Source of the DNA: Gemmatimonadota bacterium | Lineage (GTDB): Bacteria; Gemmatimonadota; Gemmatimonadetes; Longimicrobiales; Gaopeijiaceae | Direction of reading: 5' to 3' | NCBI GenBank assembly: GCA_026706635.1 | Contig: JAPOYJ010000075.1 | Location: 1 to 64,000 of the forward strand | Length of the DNA stretch: 64,000 bases | Part shown: positions 3,768-40,498 of the stretch, piece by piece | Numbering within the stretch: the first letter of the stretch is position 1 | How the letters are laid out: each line of letters opens with the position of its first letter | Notes under the pieces: generated by a model | Database searches by the model: none | What the model saw: only the letters and a program-made list of their open reading frames with translations | What the model was told of the DNA's origin: nothing | Program-made: the position numbers and the translations under genes

Positions 3768-5037
3768 TTTTGTCACTTCAAGGCCTCGCGCTGCATTGCT
3801 CCTCGGGCCAGTAGCACACCTCCTGCTCGTTACCACGGCGGCCACCGCCCTCGCGTCGTGCGGAACCGAATCGCCGTCGTCGAGCCCGACTCGCGAAGTG
3901 CTGCCAAACGGGGCGGTCGTCGTTCGCTACTCCGGCCTCCCCGCCATCGACTCCGTCGACCGCATGGTGACGGAAGCCCAGGTGGACCTTGAGTTCGGGA
4001 GCCTCGAGGGCGACGACCCCAACCTCACCTTCGGAGGCATCCGGGGCATCCAGGCCGCGAGCGACGGCACCATCTATGTGCTGGACGTCCAGGCCGCCGA
4101 AGTGCGGGCCTACGATCCCGATGGCCAATACCTGCGGACGGTAGTGCGGGGCGGCGAAGGCCCGGGCGAGATTACCGAAGCAAACGGGATCATCCTCGCG
4201 GGCGACACGCTCCTGTGGCTCAACGACCACGGCAAGTGGTCGATCATCGGGGTCGACCGGGCCGGGCAGGAGGTGCGCCGCTTCGTCAAGCCCATCTGGA
4301 GCTACGGGTATATCTGGGATGGCGCCTTCGACGATCGGGGACGCTACTGGAGGCATACCTCCCATGAGGAGGGCGGATTCACCTACCCGCCTCCACCGGG
4401 CCTGAGTTCAAGGACCGCCCGCAACTACTACAAGTCCTACGACCTGTCGAGCGAGGCCATTGACTCGGTCTACCTCGGTCAGAGCACCTTCCGGTCTTAC
4501 ACATACAAGGACCCGAACGGGAACTGGCAGTTTCTGCCGATCTCCTTCGAGCCATCCAACATCTTCGTGCTCAATCCGTCCGGCGGCTTCTGGCGGGCGA
4601 ACAGCGCCTCATACCGCATCGTGCGAACCGGCGAGGGAGGAGACACGCTTGTCGTGATCGAGGCCGGGGTGCCGGTGCAACGGGTCACGGACGAGGACCG
4701 CAGCGCGTACGTTGAGGGGTGGGTCGAGCATCGACCCGAGGCGCGCCGCGACTTGGAGGCGGTCGCGGCGCTCATGGCGGACGTCAAGCCGGTCTTGGCA
4801 GGCATCTTCGTCGACGATGAAGGCGTGCTCTGGGTAGAGAGAGTCGTGCCGAGCGACGCCCCCGCCTTCTACGACCGGTATTCCGCGGAGGGCGACTACC
4901 TGGGTTCCGTACGCCTCGCGTTCGAACCGGCGGGGGGCAAAATCTGGGTCCAACACGGCAGCATCTACTCCTGGGTCGTGGATGAGCTGGATGTTCCGTT
5001 CGTCGTGAGAGCGCCGCTGAGGTGGGAGCGGCGCTGA
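3754..5037 (+). CDS. 6-bladed beta-propeller lipoprotein (P1)
   Basis: Predicted exported lipoprotein of 427 aa: basic start, hydrophobic segment LLLGPVAHLLLVTTAATA and lipobox LASC. The body has repeated WD/NHL-like strands and the family turn motif GGEGPGEI near residue 135. No catalytic residues are evident; the function of these propellers is unknown. The ATG at 3754 is inside the AT-rich core of the upstream repeat element, and translation further upstream would only read that repeat. It is convergent with the next gene, with 79 bp between stops. The sequence is only distantly related to the A and B propellers next door. Confidence 0.75.
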   Translation: MFTTHFVTSRPRAALLLGPVAHLLLVTTAATALASCGTESPSSSPTREVLPNGAVVVRYSGLPAIDSVDRMVTEAQVDLEFGSLEGDDPNLTFGGIRGIQAASDGTIYVLDVQAAEVRAYDPDGQYLRTVVRGGEGPGEITEANGIILAGDTLLWLNDHGKWSIIGVDRAGQEVRRFVKPIWSYGYIWDGAFDDRGRYWRHTSHEEGGFTYPPPPGLSSRTARNYYKSYDLSSEAIDSVYLGQSTFRSYTYKDPNGNWQFLPISFEPSNIFVLNPSGGFWRANSASYRIVRTGEGGDTLVVIEAGVPVQRVTDEDRSAYVEGWVEHRPEARRDLEAVAALMADVKPVLAGIFVDDEGVLWVERVVPSDAPAFYDRYSAEGDYLGSVRLAFEPAGGKIWVQHGSIYSWVVDELDVPFVVRAPLRWERR

Positions 5038-5072
5038 GGTGAGCGGTTTCCACGATCGCGAGCGGACCCTGG

Positions 5073-7143
5073 TGTCGTGCGATCTCGGCGGCGTTGGCGA
5101 ACCCCGCGGACTGCTACTACCCTTGCGGTTCCAGCGCAATCAGCCTGACCACGCGCACGGTCTGAACCTCAAGCTCGTCGGTCTCGATGTAGGCCATGAG
5201 CCCGCCCGGACCGAAGGCATCCGGCGTATGTAGTCCATCCGGCGGCAGGGTACCTACGTAGCCCCCGTCGGGTGTCACGATGTCGGTCGGGCCGTCGTCG
5301 TCGCCCGTGGGACCCCAGCGTTCCAGCCAGACCCGGTCCTCCCAGTCCACCTTCAAGTCGTACAGCACCGGCACCTCGTCGGCGAAGGTGCGGCCCTCGA
5401 CGCCCTCCCGGTCAAGCCGGACGTTCGCAGCCTCTGCGCTCTCCCGCGCCGACGTCTCGTTTTCGCGGTAGCGCTCGCGTTCGGCTTCCCTGATCGCATC
5501 GTCGACCGGCAGTGGTGCGATCGGTCGCTCGATGGTTCCTGAGACGCTTCCGTCGAGTCCGATGAGCTTGACGCGATAGCCGATCGAGTCGATCAACGCG
5601 AGGCGGCCGTCGGTGAGCAGGTCGTATCGAAGGTGGGGCTCGAAGGCGCGGCCCGCCGGGATGCTCACGCTCAGACCCGTCGATCGGGATCCGCTCATGT
5701 CGATCTCGTCTTCGTCCTCTTCGGGCAGCTCCCAGGCGGTATAGAGGAGCTGCGGAACGATGCTGTCGCTGGGAAAGATGCGGATCGGGCGGCCCACTTC
5801 TTCAGGCTCCTCGTCGTCTCCGAAGCGCATGAACTCGGAGGACACCAGGCGACCATCGGGAAGCGCCACCCCACCCATGACGATACCCGTAGTCATCGGG
5901 TTCATGGCGATGCTCCCCGCGAACTCGCCGCCGGGTTCGAAGAGGTCGATCCGCGAGAATCCCATCACCTTGTAGGAGCCGTCGCGCGCCACGATCGCCG
6001 TCATCACGTTGCCGAACTCTCCCGGTCCCTCGCCCGGCCCGCCGACCGTACGGACCAGCGACCCATCCGTTCCGACCACCAGGATATGATCGGCCTGGCT
6101 GTCGAAGATGTGCAGGTTGGACTGGGCGTCGAAGTGCACCGAGCGAACGCTCCCGAAGGTGTCCCAGTCGTCGCCCGCAACAAAGCCGACGGTGAAGACC
6201 TCCTCGGTCACCGCGTTCACGATCACGTCCGGGCCGTCCAGGGTTCCGGCGGCGCCGGTGCCCGATCTGTCCCCACCGTCGCCGCAGGCTGGTAGCAGGG
6301 CGAGGGTGAGAGGCGCGAGCACCGCGAGACATCGCGGCACCAATCTCGTCGTCAGCTTCGGCATTTCGGGCATTTCGGTTGGTCTCTCCGGGTCAGGGGG
6401 CTCGCGCGAGTCGTTCGATATTCGGGGAGACCGGAGGCGTTGCCCGGTCGGTGCTTCGTGCCAAGGCGATCCGGCACCGCATGAAGGCTCGGCAGCGTCA
6501 GGTTCGTCCCATGTCAATGTACACAAGGGGCCCCTCATGGACGACGACTCTCGGAGGATCGGGCAACTGGTGGCGGCGGCGCGGAGACCCCGGCGGGAGC
6601 TTGCGGAGCTCGGGGGTGAGGGGCATCCCTGGGCGGCGCCGGGCCCCGCTACCGTTTCCTTCGCACGACTCGATGCACCCTGACGTACTCGACACCGAGT
6701 TCGTCCCGGTAGACGCCCGCCAGCAGCCCATCGCGGATCGAGAGAACCGTCAGGCCGCCTGGAGTCGAGACAGACCCAAGGTAGACCCCGGTCGGATCGA
6801 GGACATCCCACGTCGGCGGCTCTCGTGACAGCGGATCGGACTCGAAGCGACGCGCCCAGAAAGTTCCATCGCGGTCGGCCAGCAGCCGGTCGAATGCGGG
6901 CTCGTACCGGGGGACTTCAATACGATCTCTCCAGTCGCGCCAGACTGCCGCGCCAGCACCCGACTGACCGAGTTCGACAAGACTCTCGATGACCCGTGTG
7001 ACCTCCGACTCGGCCACGGCTCTCCGGTCGCGCGCGATCCGGTAGCGAGTCACCAGCGAGCCGTCCACGTCGTGCACCGACACTTCGGCGTCGGGGCCGG
7101 TTGCCACGGCGAGCCGGGTGCCGTACGTAGCCCACAGCGGCCG
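5073..7143 (-). repeat. Segmental duplication block 1 (propellers A and B)
   Basis: First of three related blocks. It runs from a conserved tract just downstream of gene A (TGTCGTGCGATCTCGGCGG) through gene A, its upstream region and part of gene B. The related blocks start near 9299 (A' only) and 13538 (A'' plus the end of B'). Blocks 1 and 3 stay alignable up to CCCACAGCGGCCG, ending at 7143 and 15606. The conserved intergenic part includes GGACGACGACTCTCGGAGG. Confidence 0.7.
5117..6373 (-). CDS. 6-bladed beta-propeller lipoprotein A
   Basis: 418-aa exported lipoprotein with signal MPEMPKLTTRLV..LALLPAC (lipobox LPAC). The motif GGPGEGPGEFGN marks the propeller family. It is a close paralog of A' (9343) and A'' (13583); all three share the end VQTVRVVRLIALEP. 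The ATG at 6373 follows GGAGAG and matches the start of A''; upstream codons are intergenic. A weak -10-like TACATT about 140 bp upstream aligns with TATATT and TACATT before the other two copies. A TIR-like GCAGTCCGCGG lies just past the stop. Function unknown; a surface or periplasmic binding role is a guess. Confidence 0.8.
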   Translation of the reverse strand: MPEMPKLTTRLVPRCLAVLAPLTLALLPACGDGGDRSGTGAAGTLDGPDVIVNAVTEEVFTVGFVAGDDWDTFGSVRSVHFDAQSNLHIFDSQADHILVVGTDGSLVRTVGGPGEGPGEFGNVMTAIVARDGSYKVMGFSRIDLFEPGGEFAGSIAMNPMTTGIVMGGVALPDGRLVSSEFMRFGDDEEPEEVGRPIRIFPSDSIVPQLLYTAWELPEEDEDEIDMSGSRSTGLSVSIPAGRAFEPHLRYDLLTDGRLALIDSIGYRVKLIGLDGSVSGTIERPIAPLPVDDAIREAERERYRENETSARESAEAANVRLDREGVEGRTFADEVPVLYDLKVDWEDRVWLERWGPTGDDDGPTDIVTPDGGYVGTLPPDGLHTPDAFGPGGLMAYIETDELEVQTVRVVRLIALEPQG

Positions 7144-7854
7144 AGGGCTGAACGGCACGGGCAGCATGTGTCGGCCCGTCCAGATCCACCGGCCGCCGAC
7201 GATCCTGGCTAGCCGAACCCGATTCTCCCAGGCTGGATCGTAGCGCCACAGCGCTATCGTGTCGAGCCAGGCGACTCCGGCCTCGGGTGCTGACAAGGTG
7301 GCTGGGAAGGTGACCAGCCAGGTGCCGTCGTCGAACACGGCCTGAGCCACGATCGCCGAGCCGCCGAAGGAGCGGCGCTCGGTCGCAATCAGCTGTCCGC
7401 TCTCTCCCACGACGGACAGACGAGACAGCGACCGGTCCCAGATCAGGAAAGCGCCGTCGTCCCGCCGGCCCAGATAGCGCTGGCTCCAGAACTCCCCCGG
7501 ACCGTCTCCGGTGCCGCCTGCCGACCAGAGGTGACGACCGGTGGCGTCGTAGCGCCGTACCTCGGACGACCCACCATCGACCACGATGACGTCGCCGTCG
7601 GCAAGCAACGCCACATCCAGGATCCTGAAGAAGTGCGAGGAGTGATCGTCTTCGACATTGCCCAGACGAACGACGGGCTCTGGAGCGACATACCACTCGT
7701 CGCCGGGCAGCCATGCAGCGGACGTGCTCTGTACGATCTGCACTCCGGCGCTGTCGATGCGGATCGCGGCATCCGGCTCCCGCTCGGCGCACGCCGCTGT
7801 ACAGAGTACGCAGAGTGCTGCCAGAGCCTGACGGCAGCTGTCGAACCGATCCAA
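6649..7854 (-). CDS. 6-bladed beta-propeller lipoprotein B
   Basis: 401-aa propeller lipoprotein. No ATG gives a sensible signal peptide. TTG at 7854 gives MDRFDSCRQALAALCVLCTAAC, a lipoprotein signal with lipobox TAAC, and it sits a few bases after AGGAGGAG, so I chose it. The family turn motif GGTGDGPGEFW is present. Gene A lies 275 bp downstream on the same strand. The last ~160 codons recur almost unchanged as the truncated copy B' at 15115-15606. Confidence 0.75.
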   Translation of the reverse strand: MDRFDSCRQALAALCVLCTAACAEREPDAAIRIDSAGVQIVQSTSAAWLPGDEWYVAPEPVVRLGNVEDDHSSHFFRILDVALLADGDVIVVDGGSSEVRRYDATGRHLWSAGGTGDGPGEFWSQRYLGRRDDGAFLIWDRSLSRLSVVGESGQLIATERRSFGGSAIVAQAVFDDGTWLVTFPATLSAPEAGVAWLDTIALWRYDPAWENRVRLARIVGGRWIWTGRHMLPVPFSPRPLWATYGTRLAVATGPDAEVSVHDVDGSLVTRYRIARDRRAVAESEVTRVIESLVELGQSGAGAAVWRDWRDRIEVPRYEPAFDRLLADRDGTFWARRFESDPLSREPPTWDVLDPTGVYLGSVSTPGGLTVLSIRDGLLAGVYRDELGVEYVRVHRVVRRKR

Positions 7855-8305
7855 CGGACTCCTCCTGCCGGGGATTCTGGATTCCACGATTGCAACTTGC
7901 TGCGGACCACCTCGTCGCCGCAACAACGCGTGATGGTCCACCGAAGCGGGCCGATAGTGGTGCGCCAACGACCGGGCCTTGGTCCGGCCCATCGGTGAAT
8001 GCGCGGGGCCGCAGGCGATTGACTGCTCCGGTCCCTTGCCTGGTCGTCACCGCTCGAAGGCACACCGACTACGATTCCCCTACAGTGGATGCCAACGGCA
8101 CCGCTGGACAACGTATTCCGTGGAGCAGGCTGCGGGACCTGACGGCAGCGCACGGAGCGTCCGCACCGCTACGGACGCTCCGGCAAGCTTGCTGCGTCTG
8201 GGTCGCCCGTCCCCCTCTCAGCCGCTGGAGGAAAGAAGAAGGGAATCACACCGGAACCGTCCGCGAAGACGGGGCAGGTCCAGTCTGCGGGATGATTGAC
8301 ATTTT
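7855..8305. other. Intergenic region with one strong hairpin
   Basis: Gap between gene B (leftward) and the DinB remnant (rightward). No convincing coding sequence on either strand. The only clear structure is the hairpin at 8153-8182, listed separately. The right end may hold decayed N-terminal dinB sequence, but I cannot align it. Confidence 0.5.
8153..8182. other. Perfect 11-bp-stem hairpin
   Basis: CGGAGCGTCCG (8153-8163) pairs perfectly with CGGACGCTCCG (8172-8182) around an 8-base loop. No T-tract follows on either strand, so a classic intrinsic terminator is not supported. It lies about 300 bp upstream of gene B and 140 bp upstream of the DinB remnant. Confidence 0.6.
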
Positions 8306-11095: not shown

Positions 11096-12214
11096 TTGAA
11101 GGACGCCCATCCCGCTTCACAACCGCGGGGAGTTCGCAGGCCGCGACTACCCGTCTGGCATTGGGCCACTGTCGCGTTCATCGCTACATCCTCCCATCTG
11201 TCCGCCCAACCCGCAATCTCCGTACGCGACTCGATCGTGCTCCAGGAATCGGGCGATGGCTACCTCGTGGTGCCGAGCCCTATCGTGCCCGATGGATCGG
11301 GCGGCTACCTGGTTGCCGACCATGGTCAGGCAGGTGTCTTCCACTTCCTGGGGGACGGGAGCCTGCTGCGACGCTACGGCCAGGAGGGCGAAGGACCGGG
11401 GGAGTGGAAGGAGGCCGATATCACTCTGCCTTGGGGAGACCAGCAAGTCATGGTGCTGTCGTGGAGTCCGTATGCCATCCACCTCTTCCGACGCAGCGAC
11501 GGAGGCTTCGTGGAGAGCCATCCTCTCAACACGCCGGTCGAGTCGGTGGTACCGGGCTCGGGGGGTCTTTGGTCGAGCGGGGCGCACCACGGTACCTCGA
11601 GCGCGATCCGCCGCCTGAAGCTCGGCGAACCCGAGGCCCGTCCCGTCCTTCGGCTTCCCGACGTATACACGGCGGGCGGTCCCGTTGGCGGGATCTTCGG
11701 AGAAATGCCGTTCGCGATGTGGGCCGACACGCTGCTTGTCGGGTTCATGCCGCTTCCGTACCTGATCGTGGCGGATACGACCGGCCGGGAGCTGGACCGC
11801 TTTGAGATCCCCGCGACCCGTCGGAAGGGCGGCACGGCGGACCCCGCAGCCGCAATCGACGAGGTGCTCGGGGGCGGGCGCCCGTACACCGAGGTCTTCG
11901 GTCTCTTCTCCGTAACCAGGGGCGTCCACCGCCGGCCGGATGGCACAGCATTGGTGGTCCACTTCGACATGGGCACCGAAGGCGGACCCGTGAGCACGGT
12001 GGGCCTATGGGTGAGTGTCATCGACGAGTCGAGGGAATCGGCTTGCGTGGACGCGCCGATCCCGCTGGAGCCGGGTTCGCGGGCTGCCATCGGATTCGAG
12101 GGGGATCTGGTTCTGGTGCTGGAGCCGGTGATACGAGGGGGGGACGCCGTAACGGTCTTGAGGCGGATCGAGGTGGATGTGGACGGCTGTGACTGGGTGC
12201 CGGTCAATCGTTGA
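11096..12214 (+). CDS. 6-bladed beta-propeller protein, exported (P2)
   Basis: About 372 aa. A hydrophobic segment WHWATVAFIATSSHLSAQ looks like a cleavable signal without a lipobox Cys. The propeller motif YGQEGEGPGEW follows near residue 105. The start is uncertain: TTG at 11096 is the closest usable codon before the signal, and an in-frame ATG at 10895 would add about 67 basic, Pro-rich residues typical of noncoding sequence. The product ends in VDGCDWVPVNR, like the VSEEGCDWL end of the propellers at 37-40 kb. Function unknown. Confidence 0.65.
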   Translation: MKDAHPASQPRGVRRPRLPVWHWATVAFIATSSHLSAQPAISVRDSIVLQESGDGYLVVPSPIVPDGSGGYLVADHGQAGVFHFLGDGSLLRRYGQEGEGPGEWKEADITLPWGDQQVMVLSWSPYAIHLFRRSDGGFVESHPLNTPVESVVPGSGGLWSSGAHHGTSSAIRRLKLGEPEARPVLRLPDVYTAGGPVGGIFGEMPFAMWADTLLVGFMPLPYLIVADTTGRELDRFEIPATRRKGGTADPAAAIDEVLGGGRPYTEVFGLFSVTRGVHRRPDGTALVVHFDMGTEGGPVSTVGLWVSVIDESRESACVDAPIPLEPGSRAAIGFEGDLVLVLEPVIRGGDAVTVLRRIEVDVDGCDWVPVNR

Positions 12215-37030: not shown

Positions 37031-37061
37031 CGGGAGCAGCCGAAAGCTGCCCCCCTGTCAT

Positions 37062-38424
37062 ATCATCGTTCGTCCGAACCGACGGTCATGAGCCGGTCCT
37101 GCCGCGTCGGAGCCGCGCTGCTCGCTGCACTGGTCCTGGTCTCGGGCTGCAGCTCCGAGTCGGGCGAATTGGCGACCTCGGATGCGGCGGGGCCGACTCT
37201 GATACCGATCGACAGCGTCCTCCTGGAGGAGGCTGACACGCTGTATATCGGCAATCCGAACACACCGGTCGTCGATCCCTTCGACGGCTCCTTCCACATA
37301 CCCGACAACTTCTCCCTGCGGGTGCTGCGGTTCGGGCGGGGCGGAAACCTGATGATGACGTACGGCCGACCGGGCGAAGGCCCCGGCGAGTTCCATGGAG
37401 GGGTGGAGACTCCGATCATCCTGGACGACTCGACAGTGGTCGTCCAGTCAACCTGGAACCGGCAGGCGAATGTCTTCGACCGGCGCACCGGCGAGGTCAG
37501 GCGGGTGGTGAGCTTCCCCGCGATGGCCGGGATCACGCCACCGTTGGTGATCGGCGACGATGTCTGGATGAACGACTTCGAGGTTGAACGAAGAACATCG
37601 CTGACACGCTGGAGACCGGCCACGGACGAATTCGAGAGCCTGGGCACCCTCCCAGCCGAGTATCTGGCGTCGGTCGAGAGCGGCAACTGGAGATTCGCAG
37701 GCGCCTTCTCGATCAGCTCCCTTGCGTACTCGGAAGGTCGCTTTCTCCAGGGCTGGTCGGGGATGGACGAGATGTTCGTCCTGAACATGCGGGGCGAGGT
37801 GGTCGACACCGCCGATGTGCCGGTGGTGCGTCGCCAGGGTGTGCCGGCCGACCTGCGCGAACAGATCGACATAGAGCACATGCCATTTCGCGAGGTCATG
37901 GAGATCAACTCGGATCTGCGGCAGCTGCAGGCACGTCCCGGCGGCGGCTTCCACTTCACCCACCACGACCATACGGTGCTCGCGATGGAGCCGATGCCGG
38001 TGCTCACGGCCAAGGCGTGGGTTGGGATCCTCTCGCCGGATCTGTCGAGTGCGTGTGTTGACACCCCGGTCCCGCACGACTTCGAGATAAAGCCGATGGA
38101 GACCTTTCGTGGCGACACGCTCTTCGTGCTGGACAGGCGCATCGACGAGGGCGAGAAGCTCCAGACCTGGATCCTGATGTTCCTGGTTTCGGAGGAGGGG
38201 TGCGACTGGCTGAGCACCGATCCGGCGGATGCCGGAAGAGCGGTGGGTCGGCGGGAGGGATGAGGCTGGTGGAAGGGGTCTGCGGAGAGATGCGGGCTTG
38301 GGCGCAGATCGGGCTAACGGCTGCAGGGATGTGACGCTGGGCTGCACCGAGGGCCGCAGTGCCGATCCGGGGGAGTGGACACTCTCGGACGGGAGGGGTA
38401 TTGCGGAGCTGACCCTCGGGGACC
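37062..38424 (+). repeat. Tandem duplication, first copy (1,363 bp)
   Basis: Matches 38771-40133 at an offset of 1,709 bp. The only differences I found are two bases near the left end (GAACCGACGG against GAAGTGACGG). It contains the last ~17 bp of the peptide gene (ATCATCGTTCGTCCGAA), the whole propeller gene and the first ~31 codons of the CxxC gene. Near-identity means a very recent event. Confidence 0.95.
37088..38263 (+). CDS. 6-bladed beta-propeller lipoprotein P4, copy 1
   Basis: 391 aa. Signal MSRSCRVGAALLAALVLVSGC (lipobox VSGC). Propeller motif YGRPGEGPGEFHGG near residue 97, and the C-terminal VSEEGCDWLSTDPADAG. Identical in protein sequence to the copy at 38797. This copy has lost its native upstream peptide gene: only the last bases of that gene remain in front of it, so its expression may depend on gltX transcription. 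Function unknown. Confidence 0.85.
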   Translation: MSRSCRVGAALLAALVLVSGCSSESGELATSDAAGPTLIPIDSVLLEEADTLYIGNPNTPVVDPFDGSFHIPDNFSLRVLRFGRGGNLMMTYGRPGEGPGEFHGGVETPIILDDSTVVVQSTWNRQANVFDRRTGEVRRVVSFPAMAGITPPLVIGDDVWMNDFEVERRTSLTRWRPATDEFESLGTLPAEYLASVESGNWRFAGAFSISSLAYSEGRFLQGWSGMDEMFVLNMRGEVVDTADVPVVRRQGVPADLREQIDIEHMPFREVMEINSDLRQLQARPGGGFHFTHHDHTVLAMEPMPVLTAKAWVGILSPDLSSACVDTPVPHDFEIKPMETFRGDTLFVLDRRIDEGEKLQTWILMFLVSEEGCDWLSTDPADAGRAVGRREG

Positions 38425-38474
38425 GTCATATGATCGCGATCTTGACACGGTACAGGGGGATTGCATACTGCTGA
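38331..38474 (+). pseudogene. 5' fragment of the CxxC protein gene
   Basis: GTG start and about 31 codons identical to the start of the gene at 40040 (LGCTEGRSADPGEWTLSDG), then the duplication boundary at 38424, after which 16 unrelated codons lead to a stop. Created by the tandem duplication. Confidence 0.85.
38442..38469 (+). promoter_or_regulatory. Probable sigma-70 promoter of the peptide gene
   Basis: TTGACA at 38442-38447, 16-bp spacer, then CATACT at 38464-38469 (4 of 6 matches to TATAAT). It lies 83 bp upstream of the peptide start and just right of the duplication junction, so it is original to the peptide-propeller-CxxC cassette. Confidence 0.45.
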
Positions 38475-38551
38475 GTCATGGTCAACGCACGGCAGTTGCC
38501 GAGGTCACCACCCGGGTGGCACCGGTGACGGCCACAGCCAAAGGAGATACG

Positions 38552-38791
38552 ATGACGACCATGACGAAGAAGACGCGTACCTGGATCGGCGGCCTGCTGG
38601 GCGTTGGGGTGCTGGTGGCAGTTGGCTGGGGGGCCATGCCCTTCGGGGCGGGGGCGCAGAAACCTCCCTCCCATTGGCTACAGTTTAACGACGCCAAATG
38701 CGCGCAGACGTGCCCGGCTTTTCCACAGAAGCCCGGGGTGGAGTGCTGCAACTCGGAGCCGTTGGATCCCATCATCGTTCGTCCGAAGTGA
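38552..38791 (+). CDS. Small exported Cys-rich peptide
   Basis: 79 aa. Basic start MTTMTKKTR, hydrophobic segment TWIGGLLGVGVLVAVGWGAM, probable cleavage near GAGA-Q, and a 40-residue mature part with four Cys (KCAQTCPAF, VECCNSE) ending IIVRPK. AAGGAG lies 7 bp before the ATG. The propeller lipoprotein starts 5 bp after its stop. Bacteroidetes have a comparable pairing of NVEALA peptides with 6-bladed beta-propellers; this peptide lacks the NVEALA motif, so the likeness is in arrangement only. Function unknown. Confidence 0.75.
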   Translation: MTTMTKKTRTWIGGLLGVGVLVAVGWGAMPFGAGAQKPPSHWLQFNDAKCAQTCPAFPQKPGVECCNSEPLDPIIVRPK

Positions 38792-40133
38792 CGGTCATGA
38801 GCCGGTCCTGCCGCGTCGGAGCCGCGCTGCTCGCTGCACTGGTCCTGGTCTCGGGCTGCAGCTCCGAGTCGGGCGAATTGGCGACCTCGGATGCGGCGGG
38901 GCCGACTCTGATACCGATCGACAGCGTCCTCCTGGAGGAGGCTGACACGCTGTATATCGGCAATCCGAACACACCGGTCGTCGATCCCTTCGACGGCTCC
39001 TTCCACATACCCGACAACTTCTCCCTGCGGGTGCTGCGGTTCGGGCGGGGCGGAAACCTGATGATGACGTACGGCCGACCGGGCGAAGGCCCCGGCGAGT
39101 TCCATGGAGGGGTGGAGACTCCGATCATCCTGGACGACTCGACAGTGGTCGTCCAGTCAACCTGGAACCGGCAGGCGAATGTCTTCGACCGGCGCACCGG
39201 CGAGGTCAGGCGGGTGGTGAGCTTCCCCGCGATGGCCGGGATCACGCCACCGTTGGTGATCGGCGACGATGTCTGGATGAACGACTTCGAGGTTGAACGA
39301 AGAACATCGCTGACACGCTGGAGACCGGCCACGGACGAATTCGAGAGCCTGGGCACCCTCCCAGCCGAGTATCTGGCGTCGGTCGAGAGCGGCAACTGGA
39401 GATTCGCAGGCGCCTTCTCGATCAGCTCCCTTGCGTACTCGGAAGGTCGCTTTCTCCAGGGCTGGTCGGGGATGGACGAGATGTTCGTCCTGAACATGCG
39501 GGGCGAGGTGGTCGACACCGCCGATGTGCCGGTGGTGCGTCGCCAGGGTGTGCCGGCCGACCTGCGCGAACAGATCGACATAGAGCACATGCCATTTCGC
39601 GAGGTCATGGAGATCAACTCGGATCTGCGGCAGCTGCAGGCACGTCCCGGCGGCGGCTTCCACTTCACCCACCACGACCATACGGTGCTCGCGATGGAGC
39701 CGATGCCGGTGCTCACGGCCAAGGCGTGGGTTGGGATCCTCTCGCCGGATCTGTCGAGTGCGTGTGTTGACACCCCGGTCCCGCACGACTTCGAGATAAA
39801 GCCGATGGAGACCTTTCGTGGCGACACGCTCTTCGTGCTGGACAGGCGCATCGACGAGGGCGAGAAGCTCCAGACCTGGATCCTGATGTTCCTGGTTTCG
39901 GAGGAGGGGTGCGACTGGCTGAGCACCGATCCGGCGGATGCCGGAAGAGCGGTGGGTCGGCGGGAGGGATGAGGCTGGTGGAAGGGGTCTGCGGAGAGAT
40001 GCGGGCTTGGGCGCAGATCGGGCTAACGGCTGCAGGGATGTGACGCTGGGCTGCACCGAGGGCCGCAGTGCCGATCCGGGGGAGTGGACACTCTCGGACG
40101 GGAGGGGTATTGCGGAGCTGACCCTCGGGGACC
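38771..40133 (+). repeat. Tandem duplication, second (original) copy
   Basis: Counterpart of 37062-38424. Here both ends are intact genes (the peptide gene at the left, the CxxC gene at the right), so this is the source locus and the upstream block is the copy. The 346 bp between the copies hold the peptide gene and its promoter. Confidence 0.95.
38797..39972 (+). CDS. 6-bladed beta-propeller lipoprotein P4, copy 2
   Basis: 391 aa, identical to the product at 37088 (lipobox VSGC, motif GEGPGEF). It lies 5 bp after the Cys-rich peptide and 67 bp before the CxxC protein, forming an apparent three-gene operon of exported products behind the promoter at 38442. The propeller may present or bind the peptide or its product; that is inference from arrangement only. 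Confidence 0.87.
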   Translation: MSRSCRVGAALLAALVLVSGCSSESGELATSDAAGPTLIPIDSVLLEEADTLYIGNPNTPVVDPFDGSFHIPDNFSLRVLRFGRGGNLMMTYGRPGEGPGEFHGGVETPIILDDSTVVVQSTWNRQANVFDRRTGEVRRVVSFPAMAGITPPLVIGDDVWMNDFEVERRTSLTRWRPATDEFESLGTLPAEYLASVESGNWRFAGAFSISSLAYSEGRFLQGWSGMDEMFVLNMRGEVVDTADVPVVRRQGVPADLREQIDIEHMPFREVMEINSDLRQLQARPGGGFHFTHHDHTVLAMEPMPVLTAKAWVGILSPDLSSACVDTPVPHDFEIKPMETFRGDTLFVLDRRIDEGEKLQTWILMFLVSEEGCDWLSTDPADAGRAVGRREG

Positions 40134-40498
40134 CGGTCGTGGTCCTCGCGGTGGACCCGAGTCAGTGTCTTCGCTGTTCGTCCGTTCTGGCTGAATGGCT
40201 GGAGTGGGAGCGGAGCACGGGGTCCAACGTGTGGCTGCTGCTCACCAGAGAGCCGACCGAGGGGGAGAGGCGCATTCTCCTGGCGACCGGCATCAGGACG
40301 GACGGGCAGCTCGCCGGGGTGCGCATCGAAGCGCAGAGAACGCCGGTCGAGCTGGTGGTGGACACAGGCGGAGTTATCGTGCGCACCGAACAGGTGTACG
40401 GGCCATCAAGCCCTCTGTTGGACGCCCTCGACGATGGCAAGTCGTTGCAGGAAGCCGTGGCCGAGTTGACTGCGGCTTATGGGGAGCCCCCCTCCTAG
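40040..40498 (+). CDS. CxxC protein, thioredoxin-fold-like
   Basis: 152 aa from GTG 40040. The stretch VVVLAVDPSQCLRCSSVLAEWLEW places a CLRC pair after a beta strand, as in thioredoxin-like and AhpC/TSA-like proteins; the rest (NVWLLLTREPTEGERRILLATGI, VELVVDTGGVIVRTEQVYG) also reads as alternating strands and helices. No clear signal peptide in this frame. An overlapping short frame (ATG 39999, MRAWAQIGLTAAGM) just upstream could supply one if a -1 shift at GCAGGGAT occurred, or if a base was lost. Partner of the peptide and propeller upstream. Confidence 0.6.
   Translation: MTLGCTEGRSADPGEWTLSDGRGIAELTLGDPVVVLAVDPSQCLRCSSVLAEWLEWERSTGSNVWLLLTREPTEGERRILLATGIRTDGQLAGVRIEAQRTPVELVVDTGGVIVRTEQVYGPSSPLLDALDDGKSLQEAVAELTAAYGEPPS

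Follow-up and report, generated by a model that had tools for sequence, protein, structure and literature searches.

Organization of the locus

The window, here the whole 64-kb stretch of DNA that was analyzed, is the start of contig C5 of an assembly of 2.8 Mb in 86 contigs. It contains a module of three genes on the same strand, comprising a peptide gene (38552-38791), a propeller lipoprotein gene 5 bp further on (38797-39972), and the gene of a thioredoxin-like protein, CLRC (approximately 39969-40498). The module is flanked on one side by a 63-aa membrane ORF, which lies after what we take to be a glutamyl-tRNA-synthetase-like gene, and on the other side by a convergent block, presumably for methionine synthesis, both named from a reading of the sequence. 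The features are as follows:

37057-37063, + strand: direct repeat GTCATAT flanking the duplicate on its left
37081-38424, + strand: exact 1344-bp copy of 38790-40133 (100% identical)
38425-38431, + strand: direct repeat GTCATAT flanking the duplicate on its right
38442-38469, + strand: sigma-70-like promoter candidate upstream of the peptide gene, TTGACA-16-CATACT, 10/12, a consensus match only
38540-38546, + strand: aaaggag, Shine-Dalgarno (SD) motif of the peptide gene
38552-38791, + strand: 79-aa exported peptide with the cysteine framework CxxxC-x10-CC, a C-terminal PIIV and a likely site for signal peptidase I
38797-39972, + strand: 391-aa propeller lipoprotein with the lipobox VSGC, a blade motif GEGPGEF and conserved cysteines in ACVD and GCDW
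39969-40498, + strand: gene of the CLRC thioredoxin-like lipoprotein, likely start 39969, frame broken at TGA 40041 and then open to 40498
40166-40177, + strand: CLRC (CxxC) active-site-like motif within DPSQCLRC, cysteine codons 40166-40168 and 40175-40177

The promoter considered plausible in the first-pass annotation is present as a match to 10 of the 12 consensus positions (TTGACA at 38442), and such a site was found once, as opposed to 0.3 ± 0.6 times in shuffled sequences.

The exported peptide

The peptide has a hydrophobic export segment, with a likely cleavage after residue 35, between AGA and Q, and its four cysteines are Cys50, 54, 65 and 66. The ORF, its SD motif and the gap to 38797 confirm the first description of this gene as a 79-aa exported four-cysteine peptide placed 5 bp ahead of a propeller lipoprotein. 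An SD-like sequence precedes all 17 of the peptide starts checked, every tested start of a relative among them. The peptide had no Pfam or NCBIfam match, and no relative of it was found among solved structures; a snake-toxin-like Pfam match was discarded as a chance match of a short cysteine-containing sequence (E 0.012, below cut-off).

Peptides of different genera have little in common beyond the signal sequence and the pattern C-x(2,3)-C-x(n)-C-x(0,1)-C. The framework CxxxC...CxC/CC, a pattern written after several members had been seen, occurs in 25 of 30 Gemmatimonadota peptides, compared with 2.3 expected from composition-keeping shuffles. The pN/pS ratios of the peptides were 0.2-0.8, apart from 0.97 in one near-identical pair, and those of their partner propellers were 0.14-0.34, so that substitutions in the peptides are mostly below neutral; in most pairs the peptide changes faster than its own propeller while the cysteines are retained. 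G316 has two tandem divergent peptides, and in G013 the peptide has a longer counterpart, an exported protein of 145 aa rich in cysteine that accompanies a CLRC-like gene and a propeller (L063, 5698-8063).

The propeller lipoprotein

The AlphaFold2 model of the propeller (pLDDT 85, pTM 0.84) matches solved structures of NHL propellers and 4raa, a protein from Bacteroides, with E values of about 1e-8 or better, and on this model the window protein has a beta-propeller fold. The likeness to the six-bladed DUF5128/NHL propellers, such as BF0058 (4raa), covers the predicted fold and the GPGEF-type blade, and relatives of the window propeller match PF17170 (L200, 27.5 bits for a cut-off of 22.9); the window protein differs from them in having no Pfam match and in its conserved ACVD and GCDW cysteines. 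A match to ScyF was rejected, since its 22 bits (cut-off 350) reflect just the common NHL blade. The window also contains a second propeller of the same subfamily (11190-12214), 29% identical and without a peptide gene, as well as further GPGEF propellers at 5.1-14.8 kb.

The CLRC protein

The most likely start of CLRC is the ATG at 39969, which has an SD motif and overlaps the propeller stop. From this ATG the frame reads MRLVEGVCGEMRAWAQIGLTAAGM and then TGA, with the lipobox LGC one frame away, so the window CLRC lacks a signal peptide and lipobox in one frame, the break lying between the 39969 start and LGC. The lipoprotein signal is intact in the relatives of CLRC, and therefore either the gene is defective in this genome or an indel has entered the sequence. 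The same frame break (39969-40043) is common to both copies present in the window. The CxxC protein with thioredoxin-like features reported in the first reading is present and has a predicted thioredoxin/TlpA-like fold, with the correction that the start at 39938 and the frame given there were wrong.

The AlphaFold2 model of CLRC (pLDDT 81) matches thiol-disulfide isomerases, TlpA, CcmG and ResA, with the CxxC before a helix and a proline before a strand, and it places CLRC in the thioredoxin-like (TlpA/DsbE) fold, at the level of fold only; the VIA Z was at most 7.8, under the level that is safe by itself. CLRC shares with TlpA, CcmG and ResA this predicted fold, the CxxC at the start of the helix, the proline before the next strand and the predicted envelope location. 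It differs from them in having no Pfam or NCBIfam match, in the replacement of the first cysteine in some members, and in its genomic tie to a peptide and a propeller. A PqqD match of CLRC (E 0.048) was below cut-off and was not retained. Within the family the second cysteine of the CxxC is invariant, and the first is replaced in a few relatives, where the motif reads WFRC, WLEC or YPAC (L056 in G003, L153 in G380, and L196). Because the first cysteine is missing in these, not every CLRC relative can be a classical disulfide exchanger.

An exact duplicate upstream of the module

The duplicate listed above does not appear in the first-pass annotation. The upstream copy includes the whole propeller gene (37088-38263) and the 5' part of CLRC (ORF 38229-38474), ending before the CxxC, and 17 of its bases match the peptide gene at its end, beyond which there are two changes. 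The 1344-bp unit has two copies only in the assembly. This arrangement fits either an insertion or a tandem duplication in which the first peptide was later lost. It is also quite conceivable, if somewhat less probable than not, that the layout of propeller, truncated CLRC, peptide, propeller and CLRC is a product of the assembly or of a strain mixture, a reading that concerns the layout only and not the module. The zero mismatches over 1344 bp in an assembly of 86 contigs are consistent with such an artifact, and a simple loop R-P-R would give the same assembly; against it, the junctions are clean, with the 7-bp GTCATAT on either side, and a pair of propellers with 93% identity also lies near a single module in a relative (L114 in G099, 3956-8292). 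Because the propeller is duplicated and the signal peptide of CLRC is broken, the module in this genome may be partly decayed.

Recurrence in Gemmatimonadota genomes

The first-pass annotation had staked its proposal on the pairing of peptide and propeller recurring in the phylum, and the pairing does recur in many Gemmatimonadota genomes. Of 395 Gemmatimonadota genomes, 21 have a match to the peptide profile and 31 have one to the CLRC profile. Among 40 distinct CLRC loci, counts that are inflated by near-identical loci and include nine loci from which the CLRC profile had been built, 37 have a same-strand propeller no more than 2.5 kb away, and a small exported Cys-rich ORF lies on the same strand in 30 (0/40 in the antisense control). 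In a sample chosen by the propeller alone, 12 of 42 close propellers had such an ORF upstream, and none had one downstream or antisense, compared with 62 of 4000 random windows. The remaining 30 of these 42 close propellers have no peptide.

The order of the three genes is permuted among genomes. G006 has the order of the window, peptide-propeller-CLRC, and the order CLRC-peptide-propeller is found in G008, G010, G013 and G003, which belong to the same genus, and also in G099, G310 and others; G012 has propeller-peptide-CLRC and G185 has peptide-CLRC-propeller. The SD-like sequence at every tested peptide start, the mostly below-neutral substitutions and this recurrence indicate a pairing beyond chance. 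The relatives with names are mostly Gemmatimonadota, including Candidatus Palauibacter, and Palauibacterales are common in sponges (PMC10469786).

In G117 (L116, 4233-5255), a six-cysteine exported peptide is followed by a DsbA-family protein and then by a propeller, so that a member of the family of DsbA-type disulfide oxidases, which CLRC itself does not resemble, occupies the CLRC slot. This substitution favors a role of CLRC in disulfide chemistry, and the earlier idea that CLRC may handle the disulfides of the peptide is strengthened by it.

Comparison with NVEALA loci of Bacteroidaceae

As first noted from the sequence, the peptide lacks the NVEALA motif, and neither the peptide nor any other part of the window genome matched PF14055, for which the control Bacteroides was positive; membership of the NVEALA family is thus ruled out. 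The background on which the comparison had been drawn also holds, as Bacteroidaceae NVEALA peptides directly precede propeller lipoproteins of PF17170, PF15869 or PF13970. The further proposal of an independent peptide-propeller system was only partly right, because these loci contain the same three kinds of protein. As in the Gemmatimonadota module, a small exported Cys peptide adjoins a propeller lipoprotein, and the loci have a CxxC lipoprotein of their own (YVDSxGCTSCKLQ) and similarly permuted orders. This lipoprotein was found in the NVEALA loci of seven genomes among those examined and has a weak match to the thiol-disulfide oxidoreductase StoA.

The plan is common to both phyla, whereas the peptide family and the cysteine framework differ, and the CxxC family probably does as well. 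The Gemmatimonadota peptides have no NVEALA motif and use another cysteine framework, which is present in 3 of 38 NVEALA peptides as opposed to 25 of 30. Across 296 genomes from the phylum to which Bacteroidaceae belong, the CLRC profile had no match, and hhalign of CLRC with the Bacteroidaceae CxxC family profiles gave E 0.006 with a probability of 6%. Two of the 38 NVEALA peptides (L281, 615-845, and L290, 5376-5621; 0.2 expected) have the Gemmatimonadota framework in the form CxxxC-x6-CxC. Additionally, L252 and L280-L282 are Bacteroidaceae NVEALA arrays, in which peptide-propeller pairs occur with transposase genes, and the region also holds genes for a CxxC lipoprotein and for a signal peptidase of the S26 type. 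No description of the Gemmatimonadota module or of NVEALA-type loci was found in a literature search on NVEALA, the propeller Pfam names and Gemmatimonadota propellers, with subscription journals mostly outside its coverage.

Because it recurs across Gemmatimonadota and has a look-alike in gut Bacteroides, the trio of peptide, propeller and thioredoxin-like protein is probably a real, uncharacterised peptide system.

Proposed function of the module

Here it is proposed, with a probability of roughly 55%, that the three genes form an envelope module in which an exported disulfide peptide is matured by CLRC and held by a dedicated propeller. Observed are the genes and their cross-phylum linkage, together with a conserved cysteine framework and the folds predicted for the proteins. 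The peptide would be exported by Sec and cut by signal peptidase I, releasing a form of approximately 40 residues with two cysteine pairs. CLRC, as a lipoprotein of the thioredoxin/TlpA fold, would oxidise, isomerise or reduce these cysteines, and the propeller lipoprotein would be the dedicated binding partner that keeps the mature peptide in the envelope. We infer the disulfides in the peptide, the redox action of CLRC, the binding by the propeller and the purpose of the whole. Counting against this reading are the CLRC relatives that have lost the first cysteine, the many close propellers with no peptide (30/42), the missing in-frame signal peptide of the window CLRC and its modest VIA Z.

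The most attractive, though unproved, purpose for the module is antagonism. It is possible, but on balance doubtful, that the peptide is secreted as a bacteriocin-like effector, with the propeller directly downstream serving as the cognate receptor or immunity protein and CLRC folding the toxin. The position of the peptide immediately ahead of the propeller, with few or overlapping bases, is consistent with such a pair, as are the tandem divergent peptides of G316 and the one peptide per propeller of the Bacteroidaceae NVEALA arrays. The faster evolution of the peptide relative to its propeller in most pairs also points this way; however, weak constraint could also explain fast change in short peptides. 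No dedicated exporter was seen, orphan propellers are common (30/42), and the peptide is unlike any known toxin. The secreted B. fragilis toxin BfUbb also speaks for antagonism, as it is reported from a variable region in which divergent beta-propeller genes are its neighbors (PMC5705921), in passages that give no link to NVEALA.

Two other functions are less likely. In the first, which is improbable, the peptide would belong to the propeller as a small subunit, either structural or carrying a cofactor, with CLRC acting as the assembly factor. Methylamine dehydrogenase offers the model, with the small disulfide subunit MauA, the propeller MauB and the thioredoxin-like MauD, and the module has the same three kinds of protein, a conserved cysteine framework and tight operons. 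However, the TTQ/CTQ cofactor needs tryptophan, the mature peptide would have just about 40 residues, and its variation is too high for a catalytic subunit; a methylamine-dehydrogenase-like subunit was rejected, as the peptide alignment has no conserved tryptophan. Slightly less probable still is a metal-binding carrier (CxxxC...CxC) kept reduced by CLRC, as TlpA does for Sco proteins, with the propeller as the receiving site: the two closely spaced cysteine pairs and the Foldseek matches of CLRC to TlpA and its ScoI complex would suit it, but no metal transporter or oxidase gene adjoins the module in the loci read, and the loops between the cysteine pairs are strongly variable.

Taking the envelope module as the preferred reading, a wider extension can be offered only tentatively, namely that Gemmatimonadota and Bacteroidota share one plan for an undescribed peptide system, in which fast-diverging two-disulfide secreted peptides, each with a cognate propeller binder and a dedicated thioredoxin-like maturation lipoprotein, would be used between cells.

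Small exported ORFs are poorly annotated, and the Gemmatimonadota peptides and CLRC lie outside Pfam and NCBIfam; their linkage to a propeller and a thioredoxin fold gives both a partner assignment that can be tested. The parallel between the phyla suggests that the NVEALA loci of gut Bacteroides, which are unstudied, may have a redox maturation factor as their third part. Should the peptides act between cells, uncultured symbionts would offer a new source of disulfide peptides.
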